Positions 18,236-41,566 of a stretch of 47,901 nucleotides of DNA are shown in pieces. This DNA is from Eubacterium sp. Lineage in GTDB: Bacteria; Bacillota; Clostridia; Lachnospirales; Lachnospiraceae. The stretch lies in the NCBI GenBank assembly GCA_024692605.1, contig JAILMQ010000027.1, forward strand, positions 1 to 47,901. Reading direction: 5' to 3'. Every line of letters begins with the position of its first letter. Positions within the stretch are counted from its first letter, which is position 1. The position numbers and the translations under genes are program-made. The notes under the pieces are model-generated. The model was not told where the DNA came from, searched no databases, and saw nothing but the letters and a program-made list of their open reading frames with translations.

Positions 18236-18260
18236 ATTATGTTTTTTTGGAGGGTCACAT

Positions 18261-18533
18261 ATGGAAATCACAGATGTAAGAGTAAGAAGAGTAGCAAAAG
18301 ATGGAAAGATGAAAGCTGTCGTATCTATAACTATTAATAATGAATTCGTAATTCATGATATCAAGGTTATTGAAGGCGAGAAGGGACTTTTCATCGCAAT
18401 GCCAAGCCGTAAGTCTTTAGACGGTGAGTATAGAGATATCGCTCATCCTATTAACTCAGATACGAGAAAGAGGATTCAGGATCTCATTTTAGCAAAATAC
18501 GCAGAAACACCGGAAGAGGAACCGGCACTCTAA
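18261..18533 (+). CDS. spoVG: Septation/regulatory protein SpoVG
   Basis: [51 protein letters not shown]. Confidence 0.96.
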
Positions 18534-18632
18534 TCACAATTTAATAGAACTGTATCGGTCGCGTGGTGACATATTAGAACAATTCTAAAACTAGTCGCTG
18601 CGCGGCTGATTTAAATTATAGGAGGTGATTGA

Positions 18633-29150: not shown

Positions 29151-30350
29151 TTAATTCGGGTCATTGTTATCTGTTTTCCGGGCTAACTGATCCAGTGTCA
29201 GGCAAAGGGGTTCTAATGATTCCAGATTCGATGGGATGTTCGAACATATTGCTATGACATATGGAGCCGAGCAGCCTCCTGCAGATACATCGGGATAAAC
29301 GATACCACCATCATTTGAGGAGGCGTATTTACTTTCGTTCTGCCATCCGGCCTTTGACTGTGTATGTTTTTTTGCTCCAATGGCTGTATACACCGGTGAC
29401 TGGTTTGGCTGTTCATACCAGCTGCTTATGGAGCGGCCTGTGTCATCTGTATTGAAAAAGAAATAATTTTTAACCCAGAGTTTAGATAAGATTCTTGGAC
29501 TTATTCTCGGATAGTTGTAGGTACAGAAGCCCTCATCTATATTCAGATCACCAATCCATTTCTTTAAGTGCTCCCTGCCATAGGTTCTTCTGTAGGAACT
29601 GTATAGCTTATTGTCTGAGTACATCAGAATCTGAATCATATTATTTTTCTGACGCTCGATCAGTTCCGGCTGGTCTGAAACCAGACTTGCGATATAAGGC
29701 CCTTTGATACAACTGGCTGAATAAACATCCAGATCACAGTTATAAGCTAATCCTTTTCCCGTATAAATATTTATCAAAACAAATCCAATCTGATAGGAAG
29801 AGTTTCCCTTCGCTTTCTGAAGGGCCTGATTTATATATATATTATCCTCACTGTCAGGTGTATATCCGCCTATTCCATAAAGGGAATGCTCTGAAGAATC
29901 TTCTTCGGGCACAGCATCTATCTTTTCAACGAGACCGGCTTTACTTACTATCTGACCATTATCATCAAAGACAAAAGGCCTTCCGTCTATCTCCCTGTAT
30001 CCTGTGGCCAGCATTCCGCTATCGTAAAAATAATAGCTTTTGCCCAGTATATTCTGCCAGCCTGTCAGCATTACACCATCGTTATCAAAATAGTATTTAT
30101 GGTCATAAAGAGTCTGCCATCCGGTGGCATTTTTTCCTTCTTCGATTTCGTAGTATTTATTACCGTTTTCAGTTTTCCAGTGTGGGGAAAAAGCTTTTGG
30201 TTCTGCGTCAGTTTTAGTTGCAGCATCTGTAGGGGTTTCTATATTTATATCTTTGTTTTGAGTATGAAGAAAATGTATACCAAAACCGGCTGCTCCCACT
30301 ATGATCAGCCCGATGATACAGCATATGATAACTTTGATTTTAAAACTCAT
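29151..30350 (-). CDS. Membrane-anchored protein with cell-wall-binding repeats fused to a class A beta-lactamase-like serine hydrolase domain
   Basis: N-terminal TM; GWQTLYDHKYYFDNDGVMLTGWQ repeats; SCIK (SxxK), YSDN (SDN), SKAG (KTG-like). Confidence 0.75.
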   Translation of the reverse strand: MSFKIKVIICCIIGLIIVGAAGFGIHFLHTQNKDINIETPTDAATKTDAEPKAFSPHWKTENGNKYYEIEEGKNATGWQTLYDHKYYFDNDGVMLTGWQNILGKSYYFYDSGMLATGYREIDGRPFVFDDNGQIVSKAGLVEKIDAVPEEDSSEHSLYGIGGYTPDSEDNIYINQALQKAKGNSSYQIGFVLINIYTGKGLAYNCDLDVYSASCIKGPYIASLVSDQPELIERQKNNMIQILMYSDNKLYSSYRRTYGREHLKKWIGDLNIDEGFCTYNYPRISPRILSKLWVKNYFFFNTDDTGRSISSWYEQPNQSPVYTAIGAKKHTQSKAGWQNESKYASSNDGGIVYPDVSAGGCSAPYVIAICSNIPSNLESLEPLCLTLDQLARKTDNNDPN

Positions 30351-30387
30351 ATTAAAACTCCGAGAGTAAGTAAGAATTCGTTTTTAG

Positions 30388-30577
30388 TGTGTCATGAGAC
30401 ATCTATGACATACGGATTGCTCCGTTTCTTACGAAACTCACGCAATCCTTAAAACATTCGGAATCCGCTGTTTTTCTATGAAAAACGCTACTTCCTCATG
30501 TTTCAGCGTGTCATGAGATCAACATACTCTCCCTGCGAGCAGGAGAGTATGTTGATCTATGACACTTATGTCATAGT
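30388..30577. repeat. Intergenic hairpin array / possible MITE with GTGTCAT...ATGACAC ends
   Basis: GTGTCATGAGA at 30388 and 30508; H1 GGATTGC/GCAATCC (30414-30448); H2 AAACAT/ATGTTT with GTTTTTC/GAAAAAC (30452-30503); H3 GTGTCAT.AGATCAACATACTCTC...GAGAGTATGTTGATCTATGACAC (30508-30565); CTATGAC/GTCATAG (30558-30577). Confidence 0.65.
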
Positions 30578-30602
30578 ATCATCTGGAAATTATCTGTGCA
30601 AG

Positions 30603-30641
30603 GCTTTTATATCTTGCGATTTTATGGTAGAATATAAAAGC
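30603..30641. repeat. Inverted repeat upstream of jetA
   Basis: GCTTTTATAT (30603-30612) / ATATAAAAGC (30632-30641), perfect 10-bp arms, 19-nt spacer. Confidence 0.6.
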
Positions 30642-30710
30642 TTATGTACACTATGTTGTGGAATGAAAAATCGCATTTATATATGAGATATAAATCAGAA
30701 AGAAGAAGCT

Positions 30711-32288
30711 ATGGCTGAGAATTACGTCCTGATAGACGATATCATTAAAAACCATACTGAGAGAATGCTTAACCTGAGGAAATTCTATCCTTTTTTTTCG
30801 CTGGCTGAAAATACATTTGGTCAGTATAAAGAGGGTCGTTTTAGATTTCTGGATATGGGTTATATTACTCTTGCTGTACTCAGATTCTTCATTAATGAAA
30901 ACAGCTTTAATGACAGACCTGTCAGGTATAAGGACTACGAGGATTTTTGTCTTGAAACCCTGAGACGTGATTTTGACCTGTATGCAGGTGGCAGAGTCAT
31001 AGGTTCTCAGTCAGATAGTGAGGATATATATTCTGCTCAGGAATTGGAAGAACTGGTCAGATATATCTTCGATAAGATAAGAAACTACGGCAAGGCCTTT
31101 GAGTTTTCTTTCTATGAGCCTGCCGAAAAGCAGACAAGAATTTCCAGGGTCAGATTCATCGACAGTGCCGTTCAGGAGAAGGATGTGGTTTATTCCATTA
31201 CTGAAGATGGAATAGAGTTTTACCTGACCACCAAGGAAGTCAGAGATGAAAGCCGTATAAATGTTCAGCAGCTTCTGCTGGAGAAACTTATTAAGTCTGA
31301 AAACTTCAAGGGCAGTATGGATGTTATCCAGAGGATCAATATTGAAGTTAAGGCTTTGGAGAAACATAGAAAGGAAGTAATGAAGCTTCTGCTTACAGAT
31401 GTACACGCCGGTACCCAGGCTGTGGATGAATATATGGAAAGAACTTCCAGATGGTTTGCAGAGGAACATAAATCCTTTACAAGAAACAGAGAGCTGGTGG
31501 ATAAGGCGGTTACAAGACTTACAGCCGGAGATAATTCCAGAGCTGCCTCAGATATTCTTAAGCTGCAGACTATGCTGAAGCAGACCATAGAAAATCATAG
31601 TTCACTTATTGCAGCAACTGCGGAGCTTTCCAGATTCTCTGATGAGATGGTAAGAAGAAGCAGGACAAGAAGCCTGCGTAATTCCTTTGATTATGAGGCA
31701 TTTCTCAATAGGATAATATCAGAAGACAGGCCCGATATTCTGGAAATGGTAGTTAATCCATTTATGCTTCCCAGAAGAAGAAAGAGCATGGCTATTGCTA
31801 CGATTGATAATCTGGTTCTTCAGAAAACCGGTGATTCACTTAAGGGTGAGGAACGAGAAGAATTAAAGGCTGACCTGGATTTCAGATATGAGGATGAAAT
31901 CTTAAGTGAAAGTGTCGGAAAGAATTTTGCAAAGCTTTTCGAAGAGCTTCTTGGCAGACTCAGCAGATGGGACAGAGTTACTCTTGAAGAATATGCTGCA
32001 ATACTTGAGGTAAAGTTCGGAAAGGATGTTTATAAAAACCGTGATTATTATTCCTTCCTTACTCATCTTGCAGGAAAGAAGATATACAAGATTTCAGAGC
32101 TGAGAGACGGTGCGGAAACATTTCTTGAAGATGCAGTGGTTAAATATATGAAGGAAAGCAGTTTTGATGAATATGATGATATCTGCTTTGAAATAATATT
32201 TGAAAAAGATGAAATAAAATTCACCTCCGAAGAAGGTTCGGAGCTGGCAGAAATGTCAAAAATAGTTTTTGAAAGGAGGCGCGACTAA
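30711..32288 (+). CDS. jetA: JetA/MksF-like subunit of a Wadjet-type SMC complex (kleisin position)
   Basis: 525 aa helical protein heading an operon with JetB- and JetC-like proteins; resembles the Firmicutes JetA family by eye; assignment relies partly on gene order. Confidence 0.72.
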   Translation: MAENYVLIDDIIKNHTERMLNLRKFYPFFSLAENTFGQYKEGRFRFLDMGYITLAVLRFFINENSFNDRPVRYKDYEDFCLETLRRDFDLYAGGRVIGSQSDSEDIYSAQELEELVRYIFDKIRNYGKAFEFSFYEPAEKQTRISRVRFIDSAVQEKDVVYSITEDGIEFYLTTKEVRDESRINVQQLLLEKLIKSENFKGSMDVIQRINIEVKALEKHRKEVMKLLLTDVHAGTQAVDEYMERTSRWFAEEHKSFTRNRELVDKAVTRLTAGDNSRAASDILKLQTMLKQTIENHSSLIAATAELSRFSDEMVRRSRTRSLRNSFDYEAFLNRIISEDRPDILEMVVNPFMLPRRRKSMAIATIDNLVLQKTGDSLKGEEREELKADLDFRYEDEILSESVGKNFAKLFEELLGRLSRWDRVTLEEYAAILEVKFGKDVYKNRDYYSFLTHLAGKKIYKISELRDGAETFLEDAVVKYMKESSFDEYDDICFEIIFEKDEIKFTSEEGSELAEMSKIVFERRRD

Positions 32289-33001
32289 TGGAAAAAAGTC
32301 TGGAAAAGGCACTTGAAATATATAGTGTACTTGCAGTGGGCAAAAATATATCCCTTAAGGATAAAGAAACCAGTGAGCTTTATAACGCCTTCTATTCTGA
32401 TTCAGAAACCTATGACATAGTAAGCGAACTTCTGTCAAAGCTTAACCTTCGTCTTTATGAATATAATGAAACCTTATTTGTAACAGCAGGTTCCGGAAAT
32501 AAGGTTTTTGGCTATACGAATGATGATCTGAAGAAGCAGATGGGACTGAGACTTAATAAGGAGTTGTATCTTGTTTATTTTATTGTTTACGAGGCGCTTC
32601 TTCAGTTTTATAAATCTTCAGACACATATCAGATAAAGGAATATATGCGATTGGATGAACTGGTTGAAGCGGTGTCTGCCGATCTGAAGAGGATAGGCGA
32701 TGAGAATGTCAGCTATACTGAGGATGAAGCTAATGACAGCTCCATGACAGCCGTTGCACTTCTGTGGGACAGTCTTCCTCCCTTTATTTCTGAGGACAAG
32801 GACAGAAACAAGGCTTCCAGAGGCTCCAGAATGGGATATGCAAAGCTTACCGCAAACTTCATGTGTGGTGAGGATATGTTTGTTATGGTGGAAGACCGTC
32901 TTTATCCTACGGACAGATTTCATGCAATTGCAGAAAATTATTTTGAGAGTAGTGCCATATATGATTACTTCTCCAATGAGGGAGGTGATCTGAATGCCTA
33001 G
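32288..33001 (+). CDS. jetB: JetB/MksE-like (kite) subunit
   Basis: 237 aa; start overlaps jetA stop (TAATG); wHTH-type acidic protein between jetA and jetC; assignment mostly by context. Confidence 0.68.
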   Translation: MEKSLEKALEIYSVLAVGKNISLKDKETSELYNAFYSDSETYDIVSELLSKLNLRLYEYNETLFVTAGSGNKVFGYTNDDLKKQMGLRLNKELYLVYFIVYEALLQFYKSSDTYQIKEYMRLDELVEAVSADLKRIGDENVSYTEDEANDSSMTAVALLWDSLPPFISEDKDRNKASRGSRMGYAKLTANFMCGEDMFVMVEDRLYPTDRFHAIAENYFESSAIYDYFSNEGGDLNA

Positions 33002-36000
33002 TATAAACAGGATAAGAGTTAATAATGTAAAATACAATTTCGGTACTCAGAGCTATGATGATTTTTCCATGAGAATGTATGGTCGTAATACATTATATGA
33101 CCTTGCAAACGGTGGTGGAAAAAGTGTTCTTATGCTGCTTCTTATGCAGAACCTGATCCCTAATTCTACACTGGATGACAAGCAGCCTATTGAAAAGCTT
33201 TTCAGGGATTGCGGAAATACAGTTATTCATTCTCTTATTGAGTGGAAGCTGGACGAATGTGACATCAAGGATGGCCTGAGATACATGACAACAGGCTTTG
33301 CTGCAAAAAGAGCTGCGACTACAGATGAAGAGCGCGAGGATGGTACTGCACAGATAGAGTATTTCAACTATGTAATATTCTATAGGGATTACAATAGAAA
33401 TGATATTGTGAACCTTCCGCTTACCAAGGAGAAGGAGAATATATCCTACAAGGCTCTCAGGAATTACCTTCATGATCTGGCGAGAAATGATAAGAATATA
33501 ATTGTCAGACTTTTTGACAGGAAGGGTGAGTATCAGAAGTTTATTGCTGAATACGGACTCTATGAAAGCCACTGGGAGATAATCCGTGGTATTAACAAAA
33601 CTGAGGGTCACGTACGTACTTATTTTGAAACAAACTATAAGACCACCAGAAGAGTTATCGAGGACCTTCTTATTGAGGAAATAATAGAGAAGGCATATCT
33701 TGCAAAGACAGACAGGGAAACAGATAAAACCGAAAGTACGGTTTCTCTTCTTATGACTATTCAGGAAGAGCTGAAGGTTCTGGCTGAAAAGAAGAGAGGA
33801 ATTCAGGTTTATGATCATGAACAGGAACTGATTCAGCTTCTGATAGACAGAATTGAATCCTTTATGGAACTCTACAGGGAACAGGAAGGGCTTGCACAGG
33901 AGTGTGGCAAGGTTTACGTGACTCTTGAATCCGAAAAGGAGAAGAGAGAAGAAAGACTGAATGCTGCCAATGCAAATGTAGAAAATGCGGAACAGAATCT
34001 GAAAAACACCAAGCTACAGCTGGACATTATCAGTATCGTTAAGGAACTGAGAGAATATGAAAATCTGAAGCGGAAATCAGACGAAATCTCCGGCTATATT
34101 GAAAAACTTGAAGAGGAAATAAAATCAGAGGACGAAAATTACAGATTCAGACAGGCGGCATCGGAATACACCGAGCTTAAAAAAGCTATTGAGCAACTGG
34201 AGAAGATAAGCATTAAGAGAGATGATATATCTAAAGAAGCCGGTGACATCTATGCTGTCGTTGCAAATATCAGAGACAGATTAGATAAGAATAAAGAAAA
34301 GTCAGAGACCCAGCTTAAAGCTCTTTCGGAAAGGGCAAATGCACTTGAGGAAGATATTCAGCTGAAAAAGAAACAGCTTGCTGAGGGTGAAACAGAACTT
34401 GCCGTCATCAGAAGCAGACAGGAATACATAAAGGATGACCTTAAGTCCAGAAACAGTTCTCTTAGCGAGCTTGAAAAGGGACTTAGTCAGGTGATGATCG
34501 GAAAACCTGCGGAGCTGATAACTGAAATGCAGACAAAGCTCGGCGGGCACGAAAAAGAACTTCAGGAAACTGATGCAAAGCTTATAAGTATTCGTCAGGA
34601 ATCTGATGAGATCAGACAGAAGCTGGAGGATGAAAAAATCAATCTTTCAATACTTCATCAGCAGATTGAAGAGTTGGAAGAAAAGTCCGTGGAATTCGGA
34701 AAGAATAAGAATAAGTTTAAAGCAATAAGCAAGATATATACCGGAAATGAAGCTGCATCACCTGAGGTTCTTGCAGAAGAATTAAGTGAAAGAGTAACTG
34801 CGGGAATCGTAAAGATATACGAGATGAAGCAGAAGATGGAAGTACTGAATAAGAAAGAGGCCAGTCTTAGGGAGGGCAGACTTATTCAGCCTACATCATC
34901 AGTGGAAAAGGTGAAGGAGTATCTGTCCACCAGACATGGGGCTGATGCTATGTTCGGTATGGATTACATATCCGCTCTTCCTGATGATATGAAATCCAGA
35001 ATACTTGAACGTCTTCCGGGAATTCCTTATGGTGTGGTGGTTAGAAATCTTGACAAAATATGCGATGATCCGGGAATCAAGGAACTGGATATTGATGAGG
35101 AAATCGTACTCTATGATAGAGATGGACTGGAGAATGCTTCACTTATAGCCGGTGAAGGCGTAGAAATAATAAGACGTGAAAAGGAATTCTTTATCAGTCC
35201 AAAGAGCGTGGTTACAAAACTGGATATTCTTGGTGAAGAGCAGACCACCTTCGGTGAGGAAATAAGAAGTAATGAGGATACTCTGGAAACTCTGAGAGAG
35301 GATCTTGATTTTGTTCGCATGTACATTGCGGGAGGATATGATAAGCTGACTCAGAGACTGGAGGAGGCCAGAATCCGGGAAAGAGATATGGAAAGACTTC
35401 TCGGTGATCTGGAAGCGAAGCTGAAGGATAACGAAAAGCAGGAAAGAACTCTGGCAGAAAAGGAAGAAACTATCCGAAAGAATCTGGAAATTTCTCTGAA
35501 TGATATATCGGTTCTGAATGAAATGGCTTCATACTATAATCTTATCAGTGACCTTGAAAAACAGGATAAGAGTCTGGAAGCAGATAAAAACAGGATCAGA
35601 AAAAATATTGAGAATATCTCTGATGAGCTTGGAAAGCAGGAGATAAAGCTTCTGGAGCTTAAAACAGCATGTGATAATCTGCGTGAAGAACTTGCTACCC
35701 AGGAAAACAGATGGGAAAACAGATTTGCTGCATATTATGTAGAGGATACGGCATTTCCAATGATTAATAAGTCTCTTCCTGAGCTTGAGACAGCCTTTGA
35801 TAATGCTCTTGGAAATGACCTGAATAATCCGCTTTCCCTCGAAAAAGAAAAGATGCTTCGTGACAATCTGAATAACACTATCGAAAAGCAGGAGAGCATC
35901 ATAAGAAATCTTGGAGTTGATATTGAAAGATTACGTTCGGCAGATGATGAAAATGCACTTCCTGTGGTTAGCCGTGAGCTGCTTGAAAAGAGCAGGGCAG

Positions 36001-37391
36001 GTCTGGAAGAATTAAGCTCGAAAAAGAAGAATTCAGAAAAGGCATTTAACGATTATTCAACCAAACAGGCAAGACTGGACGGAAGTATCAGCTATGCAAA
36101 GGAACGCCTTGTAAACGAATATGGAAACGAGGCTCTTATAGAATTGGAAAAAGGAGATCTTCCGGAGGATATTGAAACCCTTGCAAAGGAGAAAAAGGCT
36201 GTTCTGGATAGATGTAATGATGACCTCATTAATGCCAGAAAGAAGCTGAAGGAGTTTAATGAACTATCAAGAGGAAATGATGATCTTCTCAGACTTGCTT
36301 CCAGAATAGTAGAGACCAACAAGATAGATGTTTCAAGAATAGATGTCAGAGACAATATGGAAGGAATAAGAGAAGACTTTGATGCCTTCCTCCTTAAGTA
36401 TGACAAGGTTACAAAGACCATCGACAGAGCAAAGTCAGATATGCTGAAGGTTAAGCTTAAGGTTTATGAATCTCTGAATGAGTTAAATGTATCGGAACTG
36501 GCTGCATCAATAAGGGATGATGTGGTAATTCCTGAAAACTTCAAAGATGCAGAAGGACTTCTTAAGAGACTTAACGAGGTTATCGAGATTATTGTTCTTG
36601 AAAAGGAAAGAATCGAGAAGAGTCTTGAAGGAATGCAGCAGCTTAAGGACAGCTTTGTTGAACAGTGCGTTGAGAGATGTCTGGATGTCAGAACTGAACT
36701 TGATAAGCTCACAAAGCTTTCTGAAATCAGTGTAGGTGATACCAGAGTTCAGATGATAAAACTCAGCATTCCATACGTAAAGGATGAATTCATTAAAGAC
36801 AGAATGTCTGAATATATTGATAAGATTGTTGACGAAGTTGATAAGAAGGATACCGACAGCGAGAGACTTAAGCTTCTGAACAGCAGTCTTTCAATGAAAA
36901 AGATGTTCTCTGTAATTGTTACAGATATGTCCAAGATAAGGCTTATGCTTTATAAGAGAGAACGAATCAAGGAACAGAGCAGATATCTGAAGTATGAGGA
37001 GGCTGTAGGAAGTACAGGTCAGTCTCAGGGTATTTACATACAGTTCCTGATCTCAATAATCAATTATATTGCAGGAATGTATGCAGTTACAGATACTACA
37101 TCCAGATCAAAAACATTATTTATAGATAACCCCTTCGGTGCTGCGAAGGACATCTACATATGGGAGCCGATCTTCAAGCTTCTGGAGGAGAATAATTGTC
37201 AGCTAATAGTTCCTGCCCGTGGAGCAACACCTGAGATCACAGGCAGATTCGATATCAATTATATCCTTGGCCAGCAGATGACAGGAAACAGAACAACTAC
37301 GGTTGTTGTTGATTTCAGCAGCAAGACAAAGGGTGAAGAACTGGAGTATAAGGATCTGGATTATGAACAGCAGACCTTTGACTTCATCTAA
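32994..37391 (+). CDS. jetC: JetC/MksB-like SMC ATPase
   Basis: 1465 aa; LANGGGKSVLMLLLMQN Walker A near N-terminus, two long coiled coils around a central hinge-like region, C-terminal STGQSQGIYIQFLISIINYIAG and KTLFIDNPFGAAKD. Confidence 0.85.
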   Translation: MPSINRIRVNNVKYNFGTQSYDDFSMRMYGRNTLYDLANGGGKSVLMLLLMQNLIPNSTLDDKQPIEKLFRDCGNTVIHSLIEWKLDECDIKDGLRYMTTGFAAKRAATTDEEREDGTAQIEYFNYVIFYRDYNRNDIVNLPLTKEKENISYKALRNYLHDLARNDKNIIVRLFDRKGEYQKFIAEYGLYESHWEIIRGINKTEGHVRTYFETNYKTTRRVIEDLLIEEIIEKAYLAKTDRETDKTESTVSLLMTIQEELKVLAEKKRGIQVYDHEQELIQLLIDRIESFMELYREQEGLAQECGKVYVTLESEKEKREERLNAANANVENAEQNLKNTKLQLDIISIVKELREYENLKRKSDEISGYIEKLEEEIKSEDENYRFRQAASEYTELKKAIEQLEKISIKRDDISKEAGDIYAVVANIRDRLDKNKEKSETQLKALSERANALEEDIQLKKKQLAEGETELAVIRSRQEYIKDDLKSRNSSLSELEKGLSQVMIGKPAELITEMQTKLGGHEKELQETDAKLISIRQESDEIRQKLEDEKINLSILHQQIEELEEKSVEFGKNKNKFKAISKIYTGNEAASPEVLAEELSERVTAGIVKIYEMKQKMEVLNKKEASLREGRLIQPTSSVEKVKEYLSTRHGADAMFGMDYISALPDDMKSRILERLPGIPYGVVVRNLDKICDDPGIKELDIDEEIVLYDRDGLENASLIAGEGVEIIRREKEFFISPKSVVTKLDILGEEQTTFGEEIRSNEDTLETLREDLDFVRMYIAGGYDKLTQRLEEARIRERDMERLLGDLEAKLKDNEKQERTLAEKEETIRKNLEISLNDISVLNEMASYYNLISDLEKQDKSLEADKNRIRKNIENISDELGKQEIKLLELKTACDNLREELATQENRWENRFAAYYVEDTAFPMINKSLPELETAFDNALGNDLNNPLSLEKEKMLRDNLNNTIEKQESIIRNLGVDIERLRSADDENALPVVSRELLEKSRAGLEELSSKKKNSEKAFNDYSTKQARLDGSISYAKERLVNEYGNEALIELEKGDLPEDIETLAKEKKAVLDRCNDDLINARKKLKEFNELSRGNDDLLRLASRIVETNKIDVSRIDVRDNMEGIREDFDAFLLKYDKVTKTIDRAKSDMLKVKLKVYESLNELNVSELAASIRDDVVIPENFKDAEGLLKRLNEVIEIIVLEKERIEKSLEGMQQLKDSFVEQCVERCLDVRTELDKLTKLSEISVGDTRVQMIKLSIPYVKDEFIKDRMSEYIDKIVDEVDKKDTDSERLKLLNSSLSMKKMFSVIVTDMSKIRLMLYKRERIKEQSRYLKYEEAVGSTGQSQGIYIQFLISIINYIAGMYAVTDTTSRSKTLFIDNPFGAAKDIYIWEPIFKLLEENNCQLIVPARGATPEITGRFDINYILGQQMTGNRTTTVVVDFSSKTKGEELEYKDLDYEQQTFDFI

Positions 37392-37408
37392 TTATTAACG
37401 GAGTAATT

Positions 37409-38278
37409 ATGTATATTATTGAAAGCCGAAATATTCTTACACCACAAAACGGACTAAACTTATATCGTGGCCGGACTCAGGACAGTATTCTGCTTACGGA
37501 GATAGCGGGAAGCGATTCCATGGACCTGGGAGTGAAAACTGATGCTCCTGAGCTTCTTGCCGGGGTATTAAAAGCCAGACGTAATAAAGGAATCATAATT
37601 CTGGGAAATATGGGAGATCCATATAATAAATACGAGGAAGAATATTTACTTACCCGAAATTCCCTTAAGGTTATAGAGAATTATGATCATGGTGTAATAA
37701 TAAGTACATATCAGAATAGAATACTTAGAGATATTGATGTACTGAAAGGAATATCCCGAAAGACAAAATGTGTTGTAGAAATCAAAATTCCAACCCTTGA
37801 TGATGATAAACTAAAAAAGATTGACGGACCGGAGACACTGGGAAGTGAAGACAGACTTAGACTCATTAGGAATCTCAGGAAAGAGGGGATTGATGTTATT
37901 GCAACCATGTATCCTATAATACCTTTCGTAAATGATGATGAAAAAGATATTATTAATTTGATTCAAAAACTTGCGGAGTGTGATATTATTGGAATAGACC
38001 TTGCAGACATGAGACTGGCGGTTAAAAAATCCGTAAGGGATTTCTTCTATAAGCAGTACGAGAAAAGATTTCCTAAGGAATATGAGATGTATGTCAGCAG
38101 GAATGATAAACCGGGAGAACTTCTTCCGGAGAACAGAACAGCTATTCTTGCTGAAACAGAAAAGATATGTAAAGAACTGGGCATAATGTATGAGTCCAAA
38201 ACAATAAAAGCCTGGAAACGGCAGTATGAGAATAAAACTACAGGAGAGCAGATGTCCCTTTTTGACTTTGCTAAGTAG
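37409..38278 (+). CDS. Cysteine-motif-less homologue of SPL-family radical SAM proteins (predicted pseudoenzyme)
   Basis: TPQNGLNLYRGRTQDSILL aligns by eye with the family pattern NLYRGCTHGCIYC; downstream GNMGDPYNKYEEEYLLTR, NRILRDIDVLKGI, PIIPFVNDDEKDI and C-terminal GEQMSLFDF retained; starts 17 bp after jetC. Confidence 0.78.
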   Translation: MYIIESRNILTPQNGLNLYRGRTQDSILLTEIAGSDSMDLGVKTDAPELLAGVLKARRNKGIIILGNMGDPYNKYEEEYLLTRNSLKVIENYDHGVIISTYQNRILRDIDVLKGISRKTKCVVEIKIPTLDDDKLKKIDGPETLGSEDRLRLIRNLRKEGIDVIATMYPIIPFVNDDEKDIINLIQKLAECDIIGIDLADMRLAVKKSVRDFFYKQYEKRFPKEYEMYVSRNDKPGELLPENRTAILAETEKICKELGIMYESKTIKAWKRQYENKTTGEQMSLFDFAK

Positions 38279-39514: not shown

Positions 39515-41566
39515 ATGTCTTTAGAACTATATGAAAAAGCCAGGAAGATGGGGCTTAAGGCGTACAAACAGGATGTGTCTAAACAGAAACAGCCATATCT
39601 TCCGGTTCTGGATGAATTAATAAATAAGGATGATGTTTCCAGTGATGTGTCTCTGGGTCTTGTTGATATACCTTTGGACAGAGTTGTGGGAACCAGTAAT
39701 GCCGGAAGAACCCAGGCCTTTGCATCCAACTTCATGCCACTTATGGATGAAAAGACAGAGTTCTGTGCCAAGTGGTCATCACTTTGCGATTCACATCTTG
39801 AGGAGGGTATTCATGATGCCATCAAGGTATATGAGTATCTGAACTATTATTATGTCGTTGAAGGTAATAAAAGAGTCAGTGTTCTGAAATTCTTTGAAGC
39901 AGATTCAATTCCTGCTTTTGTTACCCGAAAGGTTCCTAAATACGACGAAACAAATAATGAAATAAAAATATATTACGAGTTCATGGATTTTAATAAGAAG
40001 ACCGGAGTGAATTTTATCTGGTTTTCAAAACCGGGCAGCTATAGCCAGCTTATAGAAGAAGTAAATATCGCTGAGAAGCATGGTGGAGAAGTTGGAGTTT
40101 CTGAGGAGATTTCCAGTATAGGAACGGCAGCTGATACAGCTGATGGCTCGGGAATTGCCCTTAGATCACAGGAATCAAAGATATGGAGTGAGGATACACT
40201 TCTGGAACTGAAGGCGGCCTACAGGAGATTCGACAAGGCCTTTAAGGCCAGAGGTGGACAGCATCTGGAGAATATTACAACAGGTGACGCGTTCCTTACA
40301 TTTATCAAACTTCAGGGCTTTGATACCATCTGCGACATGGGACTGGAGGTAATCCAAAGTGAGATAACTGCCATGTGGCAGGAGTTTCTTGTTATAAATG
40401 ACAGCAACGATGTTGAGGTTTCACTCACACCGCCGGAAGAAAAGAAGAAGGTATTTTCTCATATTCTTTCTTCCATGTATTCAGCTTCAAGACCACTTAA
40501 AGTTGCTTTCGTTTATAGTACAGATCCTTCTCAGTCAGACTGGTTTTATGGACATGAACTGGGAAGAAATCATATAAAAGAAAAGTTTGGAGATAAGATA
40601 GTAACCTATAAGGTTACGACAGCGGTTAATGAGCAGGATGCCATCGAGATAATGGAAAACCTGATTGAAAAACAGAAGGTGGATGTTATCTTTACTCCTA
40701 TTACCCAGCTTGTTGATGCCAGCCTGAAATGTGCCATAAAGTATCCGAATGTTAAGATACTGAACTGTTCACTTAATACATCTCACAGATATATCAGAAT
40801 GTATGATGCCAGGTTGTATGAAGCAAAGTTCCTTTCGGGAATGGTTGCAGGGGCACTGACAGAAACAGATAAGATTGGTTATCTTGCAGAGTATCCGGTG
40901 TTTGGTATAACCGCAAATATTAATGCATTTGCTCAGGGGGCTAAAATGGTTAATCCCCGGGCGAAGATTTATTTGAAGTGGAGAGCACTGAAGAGTACAG
41001 AGTTAGTAGAAGACCTTTACCATGAGTTTTATGAGGAAGGAATTGATTTTGTATCAGATCAGGATATGATAACTCCTAACAGAGCTTCAAGGAATTTCGG
41101 ACTTTACAGGGTTACTACAGAAGGCCCTCTTAATATGACCATGGCTACCTATAACTGGGGAGTTATGTACGAACGGATAATCAATATGATCATGCGTGGA
41201 GAATGGGACAATGCTGATGCTGAAAGTGAAAGTACACCTATCAATTACTGGTGGGGACTTTCTGCGGGAGTTGTGGATCTTATCCTTTCCGGAAAGGTTC
41301 CGGCCGGTACAAGGCGTCTTGTTAATACCATTAAAGAATTGATCATTGAAGACAGATTTCCGGTTTTTGGAGAAATATATTCCCAGGATGGAAAGCTTCG
41401 AAATGCCGAAGGTAATAAATTCGAAGTAGAGGATGTCATAAAAATGAACTGGCTCGCCGATAATGTGGTAGGTACTATTCCTGAGATAGATGAATTAAAG
41501 GAAGATGTAAAAGAAGTAGTTGAAATGAAGGGTATTCAGACTGAGAAAACTGATTCAGAGGAGTAG
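39515..41566 (+). CDS. Predicted cytoplasmic fusion: N-terminal ParB-like domain and C-terminal BMP/Med-type ligand-binding domain
   Basis: YYVVEGNKRVSVLKFFEADSIPAFVTRKVP (ParB-like); LKVAFVYSTDPSQSDWFYGHELGRNHI...VDVIFTP...GYLAEYPVFGITANINAFAQGAKMVNPRAKIYLKW (BMP-like); no signal peptide. Confidence 0.75.
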   Translation: MSLELYEKARKMGLKAYKQDVSKQKQPYLPVLDELINKDDVSSDVSLGLVDIPLDRVVGTSNAGRTQAFASNFMPLMDEKTEFCAKWSSLCDSHLEEGIHDAIKVYEYLNYYYVVEGNKRVSVLKFFEADSIPAFVTRKVPKYDETNNEIKIYYEFMDFNKKTGVNFIWFSKPGSYSQLIEEVNIAEKHGGEVGVSEEISSIGTAADTADGSGIALRSQESKIWSEDTLLELKAAYRRFDKAFKARGGQHLENITTGDAFLTFIKLQGFDTICDMGLEVIQSEITAMWQEFLVINDSNDVEVSLTPPEEKKKVFSHILSSMYSASRPLKVAFVYSTDPSQSDWFYGHELGRNHIKEKFGDKIVTYKVTTAVNEQDAIEIMENLIEKQKVDVIFTPITQLVDASLKCAIKYPNVKILNCSLNTSHRYIRMYDARLYEAKFLSGMVAGALTETDKIGYLAEYPVFGITANINAFAQGAKMVNPRAKIYLKWRALKSTELVEDLYHEFYEEGIDFVSDQDMITPNRASRNFGLYRVTTEGPLNMTMATYNWGVMYERIINMIMRGEWDNADAESESTPINYWWGLSAGVVDLILSGKVPAGTRRLVNTIKELIIEDRFPVFGEIYSQDGKLRNAEGNKFEVEDVIKMNWLADNVVGTIPEIDELKEDVKEVVEMKGIQTEKTDSEE

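Follow-up and report, generated by a model that had tools for sequence, protein, structure and literature searches.

A window of 47,901 nucleotides from a Eubacterium sp. of the Lachnospiraceae (the whole stretch of DNA that was analyzed) contains a compact array of hairpins between two divergent genes, upstream of jetA. What is this array, and to which of its neighbors does it belong? An earlier note, made from the sequence alone, had offered several answers: a MITE, a structured leader or terminator, or a cruciform target or regulator of the SMC operon.

The hairpin array matches RF01699

The gap that holds the array (30351-30710, 360 bp) is, as had been claimed, the largest truly non-coding one in the window; a longer candidate at 18236-18632 (397 bp) was ruled out, as it contains a 90-codon spoVG-like ORF. 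The repeats and hairpins described were present, but the first copy of GTGTCATGAGA occupies 30389-30399 (within GTGTGTCATGAGA, which begins at 30387) and is shifted by one base from the 30388 given for it. The second copy lies at 30508-30518, within a last hairpin (30508-30565) whose arms are indeed near-perfect and whose ATGACAC has its final base at 30565. The array folded far more stably than shuffled sequences did: none of 200 shuffles reached its stability, and z was −10.9 for the plus and −12.5 for the minus strand.

A cmscan search of the whole window gave a single Rfam match above cutoff, to RF01699 (Clostridiales-1), on the minus strand at 30573-30406, with 124.6 bits (cutoff 48) and over the full length of the model (1-166). 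Other Rfam matches at the array (microRNA families and rliG) were under cutoff and were dismissed as chance. By its full-length covariance-model match, the array is one copy of the Clostridiales-1 family. The unit that had been described is real, but its bounds differ: the conserved core, on the minus strand, extends over 30406-30573, and what was seen as a GTGTCATGAGA copy at 30389 corresponds to an eroded right terminal repeat beyond that core. The parts of the window copy and its surroundings are as follows.

30406..30573, minus strand: RF01699 core with four helices, P1 to P4 (full-length covariance-model match, 124.6 against a cutoff of 48)
30567..30573, minus strand: 5' arm of P1, TGACATA, which the left terminal repeat TGACATAAGTGTCAT has as its outer part (from sequence; homologous to mapped left ends in relatives)
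30508..30565, minus strand: P2, a long near-perfect hairpin with a conserved TGCTYGCA apex
30450..30505, minus strand: P3, a hairpin with conserved purine-rich internal loops (ATGAG..GTAGC / GCGGA..CGAAT)
30416..30448, minus strand: P4, hairpin GGATTGC..GCAATCC with a conserved internal loop
30406..30412, minus strand: 3' arm of P1, TATGTCA
30389..30405, minus strand: eroded right terminal hairpin/repeat TAGATGTCTCATGACAC, outside RF01699 (located where intact copies have their right terminal hairpin, TATGGTGTCAAAAGGTACTTTTGACACCCACATCA)
30573..30601, minus strand: putative promoter TTGCAC-N17-TACTAT with extended −10 (weak, 7/12; placed as the strong promoters of same-genus leader-type copies)
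29151..30350, minus strand: gene for a choline-binding-repeat protein of 399 aa, downstream of the RNA
30606..30633, plus strand: putative promoter for jetA, outside the element (9/12, as many as shuffles give)
37392..37408, plus strand: empty site, a spacer of 17 nt that separates jetC from the gene after it (RF01699 copy there in relatives G001 and G007)

RF01699 is a mobile element with terminal inverted repeats

The array is not single-copy: five dispersed copies of RF01699 above cutoff were found in the window's own genome, and copies were present in 30 of 61 relatives (one genome per species) and in 57 of the 295 genomes sampled from the order. None was found in 14 control genomes, and a search of a phage collection gave no match. 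Relatives carried up to dozens of copies, some of them near-identical; G008 had six (near-)identical full copies and at least 26 exact right ends, many at contig breaks. Terminal inverted repeats of about 18 bp were identified in G008, G282, and G313. In the last two, which belong to another genus, complete copies were 190 bp long, had as ends TGACGTAAGGGTCAAAAG and the inverse of TGAGGTAGGTGTCAAAAG, and were flanked by 5-bp duplications of TNNNA. Flanking 5-mers were identical in 21 of 29 complete copies (seven genomes), against a mean of 2.6 and a maximum of 11 in 10,000 shuffled pairings. The genus of G282 and G313 is probably Butyrivibrio, since a plasmid of B. fibrisolvens carries a copy 98.6% identical to their element.

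Duplications also flanked short variants that consist of the ends only (39 to 49 bp) and long ones (241 and 248 bp). The long variants (L257 and L258 in G313, and L260 in G282) had an extra hairpin within a loop region. Since the 5-bp duplications were intact at L257 and L260, inserts in the element are tolerated. A search for an autonomous element in G282 and G313 found no matching end pairs 0.5 to 4 kb apart, and solo ends in these genomes were truncated copies; a partner IS would bear TGANGTANGNGTCAAAAG ends and make 5-bp duplications.

With multiple dispersed non-coding copies, terminal inverted repeats, 5-bp target site duplications, and empty sites (short spacers at junctions occupied in other genomes), it is well supported that RF01699 is a MITE-like element of roughly 190 to 205 bp and, as a family, a tiny mobile element of gut and rumen bacteria. 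The proposal of a MITE was thus borne out for the family; for the window copy, with an eroded right end and without a recognizable target duplication, it rests on homology. REP/REPIN sequences with a RAYT, which make no target duplication and have GTAG-/CGTC-tagged palindromes, were ruled out by the 5-bp duplications and terminal inverted repeats.

In Rfam, RF01699 has the type label Gene; sRNA. It was described from Clostridiales and human gut sequences and rated as probably RNA and probably not cis-regulatory, and the passages found in the main text of that paper give no function for it (Weinberg et al. 2010, PMC2864571). Judged by title and abstract, the further papers found to carry the accession do not have its function as a subject. 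Sequence and structure are common to the published family and the elements described here over the full model, but the family was published as a candidate RNA only; its mobility, with the terminal repeats and the target duplications, is what the present analysis adds. The curated model ends before the right terminal hairpin/repeat, which may be why the element went unrecognized as transposable.

Helices covary and one strand is favored

In an alignment of 34 diverse copies (RNAalifold), 24 of 28 predicted pairs had compensatory changes. Over 110 copies, the arms of P1 were complementary at 6.6 of 7 positions and shuffled arms at 3.5, a difference that is partly built in, as the model fitted the ends. 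The internal loops of P3 and P4 were conserved and purine-rich. In 201 of 202 copies the annotated strand was the more stable of the two, with a mean advantage of 9.6 kcal/mol. Helix covariation and the stability advantage of the annotated strand point to selection on RNA, and the strand asymmetry argues for an RNA over a DNA cruciform, which would not need asymmetry. The suggestion of a terminator was not sustained: the array lacks a U-tract, and terminator-like sites were equally rare on both strands.

Old copies lie mostly in sense with the surrounding genes

We compared the orientation of young (near-identical) and old (divergent) copies between co-directional genes, with genes called as simple ORFs and the two classes separated by hand. 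Young copies were in sense in 6 cases and antisense in 9; old copies, collapsed to one per orthologous site via shared k-mers, were in sense at 35 and antisense at 8 independent sites (P = 4e-5 with these ORF calls and hand-made classes; Fisher test of old versus young, P = 0.006). One of the eight antisense sites (L045), between hbd and bcd, later proved to be a sense site. In a second sample, of 80 copies picked before their context was viewed, 42 were in sense and 5 antisense, with orthologous sites counted separately. Old copies are thus likely to be retained in sense. P1 started no more than 10 nt from the stop codon of the upstream gene at 23 of the 35 sense sites and at 19 of 42 in the second sample, and at intercistronic sites the next start codon was typically 20 to 60 nt away. 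This sense bias and stop-codon anchoring are absent from the main text of the original description (PMC2864571).

Certain junctions recurred. Within the window's genus, the junction of V-type ATPase subunits K and E accounted for 10 of the 20 best-matching loci; the junction of F-type c and b accounted for 7 of the 20 best-matching loci, and another genus had a copy after an F-type c gene; c-subunit junctions in relatives without the element had short spacers. Further recurrent junctions were pflB-pflA, sufB-sufD, hbd-bcd (two genera), rplL-rpoB, and ptb-buk (the last two genes named by sequence motif only). A junction that had been guessed to be mcsB-clpC proved to be purD followed by a Clp-ATPase-like gene. 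Several of the upstream products at recurrent junctions are needed in larger amounts than that of the next gene. In the same genus, other structured repeats that are not RF01699 were seen after ntpK or atpE (L293, L295, L300, L309, L323, and L326), as if several repeat families shared the niche at the ATP-synthase c-subunit junction.

The window copy probably belongs to a leader

The RNA of the window copy points away from jetA, to the minus-strand gene at 30350-29151, and the copy lies 55 nt before the start codon of this choline-binding-repeat gene. Leader-type copies in the window's genus often have the final T of a −10 box as their first base, and 15 of the 28 strong promoters found there were at offset 0, with the −35 box 17 bp upstream. 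In the window, likewise, the last T of the promoter-like TACTAT is the first base of the element. A fixed promoter offset was rejected as a general rule (1 of 22 in the second sample) and was kept for the window's genus and a few others. The structured leader envisaged before is hence the likely state of the window copy, which is probably part of the 5' leader of the choline-binding-repeat gene and not of the jetABC transcript.

A proposed cis-acting role in mRNA stability

On balance, we think it rather probable that RF01699 is a transposon-dispersed element with a conserved four-helix RNA that acts in cis to protect mRNA ends or to direct processing. A transposase acting on the terminal inverted repeats would mobilize the element, duplicating 5-bp TNNNA; insertion would occur in both orientations, and old copies would stay in sense, in intercistronic gaps or 5' leaders, where the P2 to P4 hairpins would set the stability of flanking cistrons. 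In Firmicutes, a 5'-terminal hairpin shields mRNAs from RNase J. Transcription of leader-type copies from the left edge would leave P2 as such a hairpin against a 5' exonuclease, and in the window copy a start about 7 nt past the −10 box would put the 5' end of the RNA at the base of P2. Between cistrons, the element would be a barrier or processing point, with the upstream gene expressed above the downstream one; a handful of junctions suggests this dosage idea. What had been an orphan Rfam "sRNA" would so become mobile, with its ends defined and a role in cis that can be tested.

The left end of the element starts T-G-A. A more specific form of the proposal, which we offer as a real but tentative possibility, is that the element brings a ready-made mRNA-tuning RNA cargo that has been repeatedly domesticated across Lachnospirales to adjust the dosage ratio of cistrons, with T-G-A completing a −10 box (TATAA/T) or giving a stop codon on arrival, particularly after V-type and F-type ATP-synthase c-subunit genes and pflB. 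The random orientation of young and the sense orientation of old copies are a natural experiment on the recruitment of transposed RNA structures into operons, and the recurrent sites after genes with products needed in excess are named junctions at which stability and processing can be measured in gut and rumen bacteria.

The element might instead be a purely selfish MITE without host function, its antisense copies in operons purged as more harmful and its structure kept for transposition. We consider this unlikely but worth serious weight: the hallmarks of transposition are clear, and the end-only variants of 39 to 49 bp also duplicate their target, so the cargo is not needed for movement. 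That very dispensability, however, means that the covariation of old copies needs another reason, as does their retention at orthologous junctions across species; moreover, the antisense strand has no excess of terminators, and the anchoring of P1 on the stop codon is hard to obtain from purging alone. An independent, trans-acting small RNA gene, which would agree with the Rfam type and with the published rating (PMC2864571), strikes us as very unlikely. The majority of old copies occupy narrow gaps between cistrons, where P1 is on a stop codon and the following gene starts 20 to 60 nt off, and mostly they do not stand alone as units that have a promoter and a terminator of their own.

A DNA-level operator or cruciform, for instance one that regulates the SMC (jetABC) system or is its target, has in its favor the site between divergent genes next to that system and the frequency of the palindrome TGACATAAGTGTCA in some relatives. 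We nevertheless regard it as very improbable. The element is absent upstream of jetA in four syntenic relatives (L077, L079, L081, and L082), by comparison with which the window copy is a lineage-specific insertion; the family adjoins unrelated genes elsewhere; many isolated palindromes are truncated element ends; and strand asymmetry and the conserved purine-rich internal loops indicate RNA. Regulation of the SMC operon, as the earlier note had it, was accordingly not supported, the array also being outside the predicted jetA transcript, and the strand asymmetry argues against its cruciform target.

The preferred reading, a cis-acting mRNA element, has precedents that make a stability role of P2 to P4 plausible by analogy. 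The bcr1-bcr3 repeats of the Bacillus cereus group are likewise MITE-like, structured, intergenic, and often within UTRs or between operon genes, and the presence of bcr3 in B. cereus correlates with longer mRNA half-life (PMC3446304). They are confined to that group according to the same paper, and a sequence relation to RF01699 is not expected. ERIC/IRU and Correia (NEMIS) elements are also MITEs of small size that are transcribed together with genes, and their hairpins change what becomes of the mRNA by way of RNase E or RNase III (PMC10969869), but they are proteobacterial, have other ends, and lack such a conserved multi-helix RNA. BOX elements of Streptococcus pneumoniae (PMC3049150) are interspersed structured repeats, too, and partly transcribed, but differ in their modular boxA/B/C array and in their unrelated sequence and hosts. 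The sense position expected of cis mRNA elements of the bcr3, ERIC, and Correia type was seen in RF01699 as a strong bias, read from gene orientation alone.

Other observations around jetABC

The SMC operon at 30711-37391 was identified with PADLOC models as Wadjet type III, jetA-jetB-jetC. Judged by the named relatives of jetA, the host is probably a Lachnospiraceae of the rumen. The gene that follows the operon (37409-38278) has a homologue in G001 that is a weak radical-SAM match and, there too, comes after jetC. At this junction, a 17-nt spacer in the window, the copies in G001 and G007 had P1 beginning on the jetC stop codon. Another copy (L055, in G008) lay between homologues of the window genes 37409-38278 and 39515-41566; together with the other copies of the jet region, this makes three junctions that have received an RF01699 insertion in one species or another.

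One locus (L074) carried, in the roughly 350 bp before jetA, another kind of structured repeat in tandem, CTCCATGAGGTAAATG..GCGGATTTACCGAATGG, the core of which resembles the P3 hairpin of RF01699. The palindrome TGACATAAGTGTCA was strongly over-represented in G008, G021, G000, and G007, often just upstream of genes; as the main reading of these sites, an operator was dropped, many solo sites being truncated element ends; others may be operators. In G008, 36 such sites were present, against 1 for the reversed pattern.
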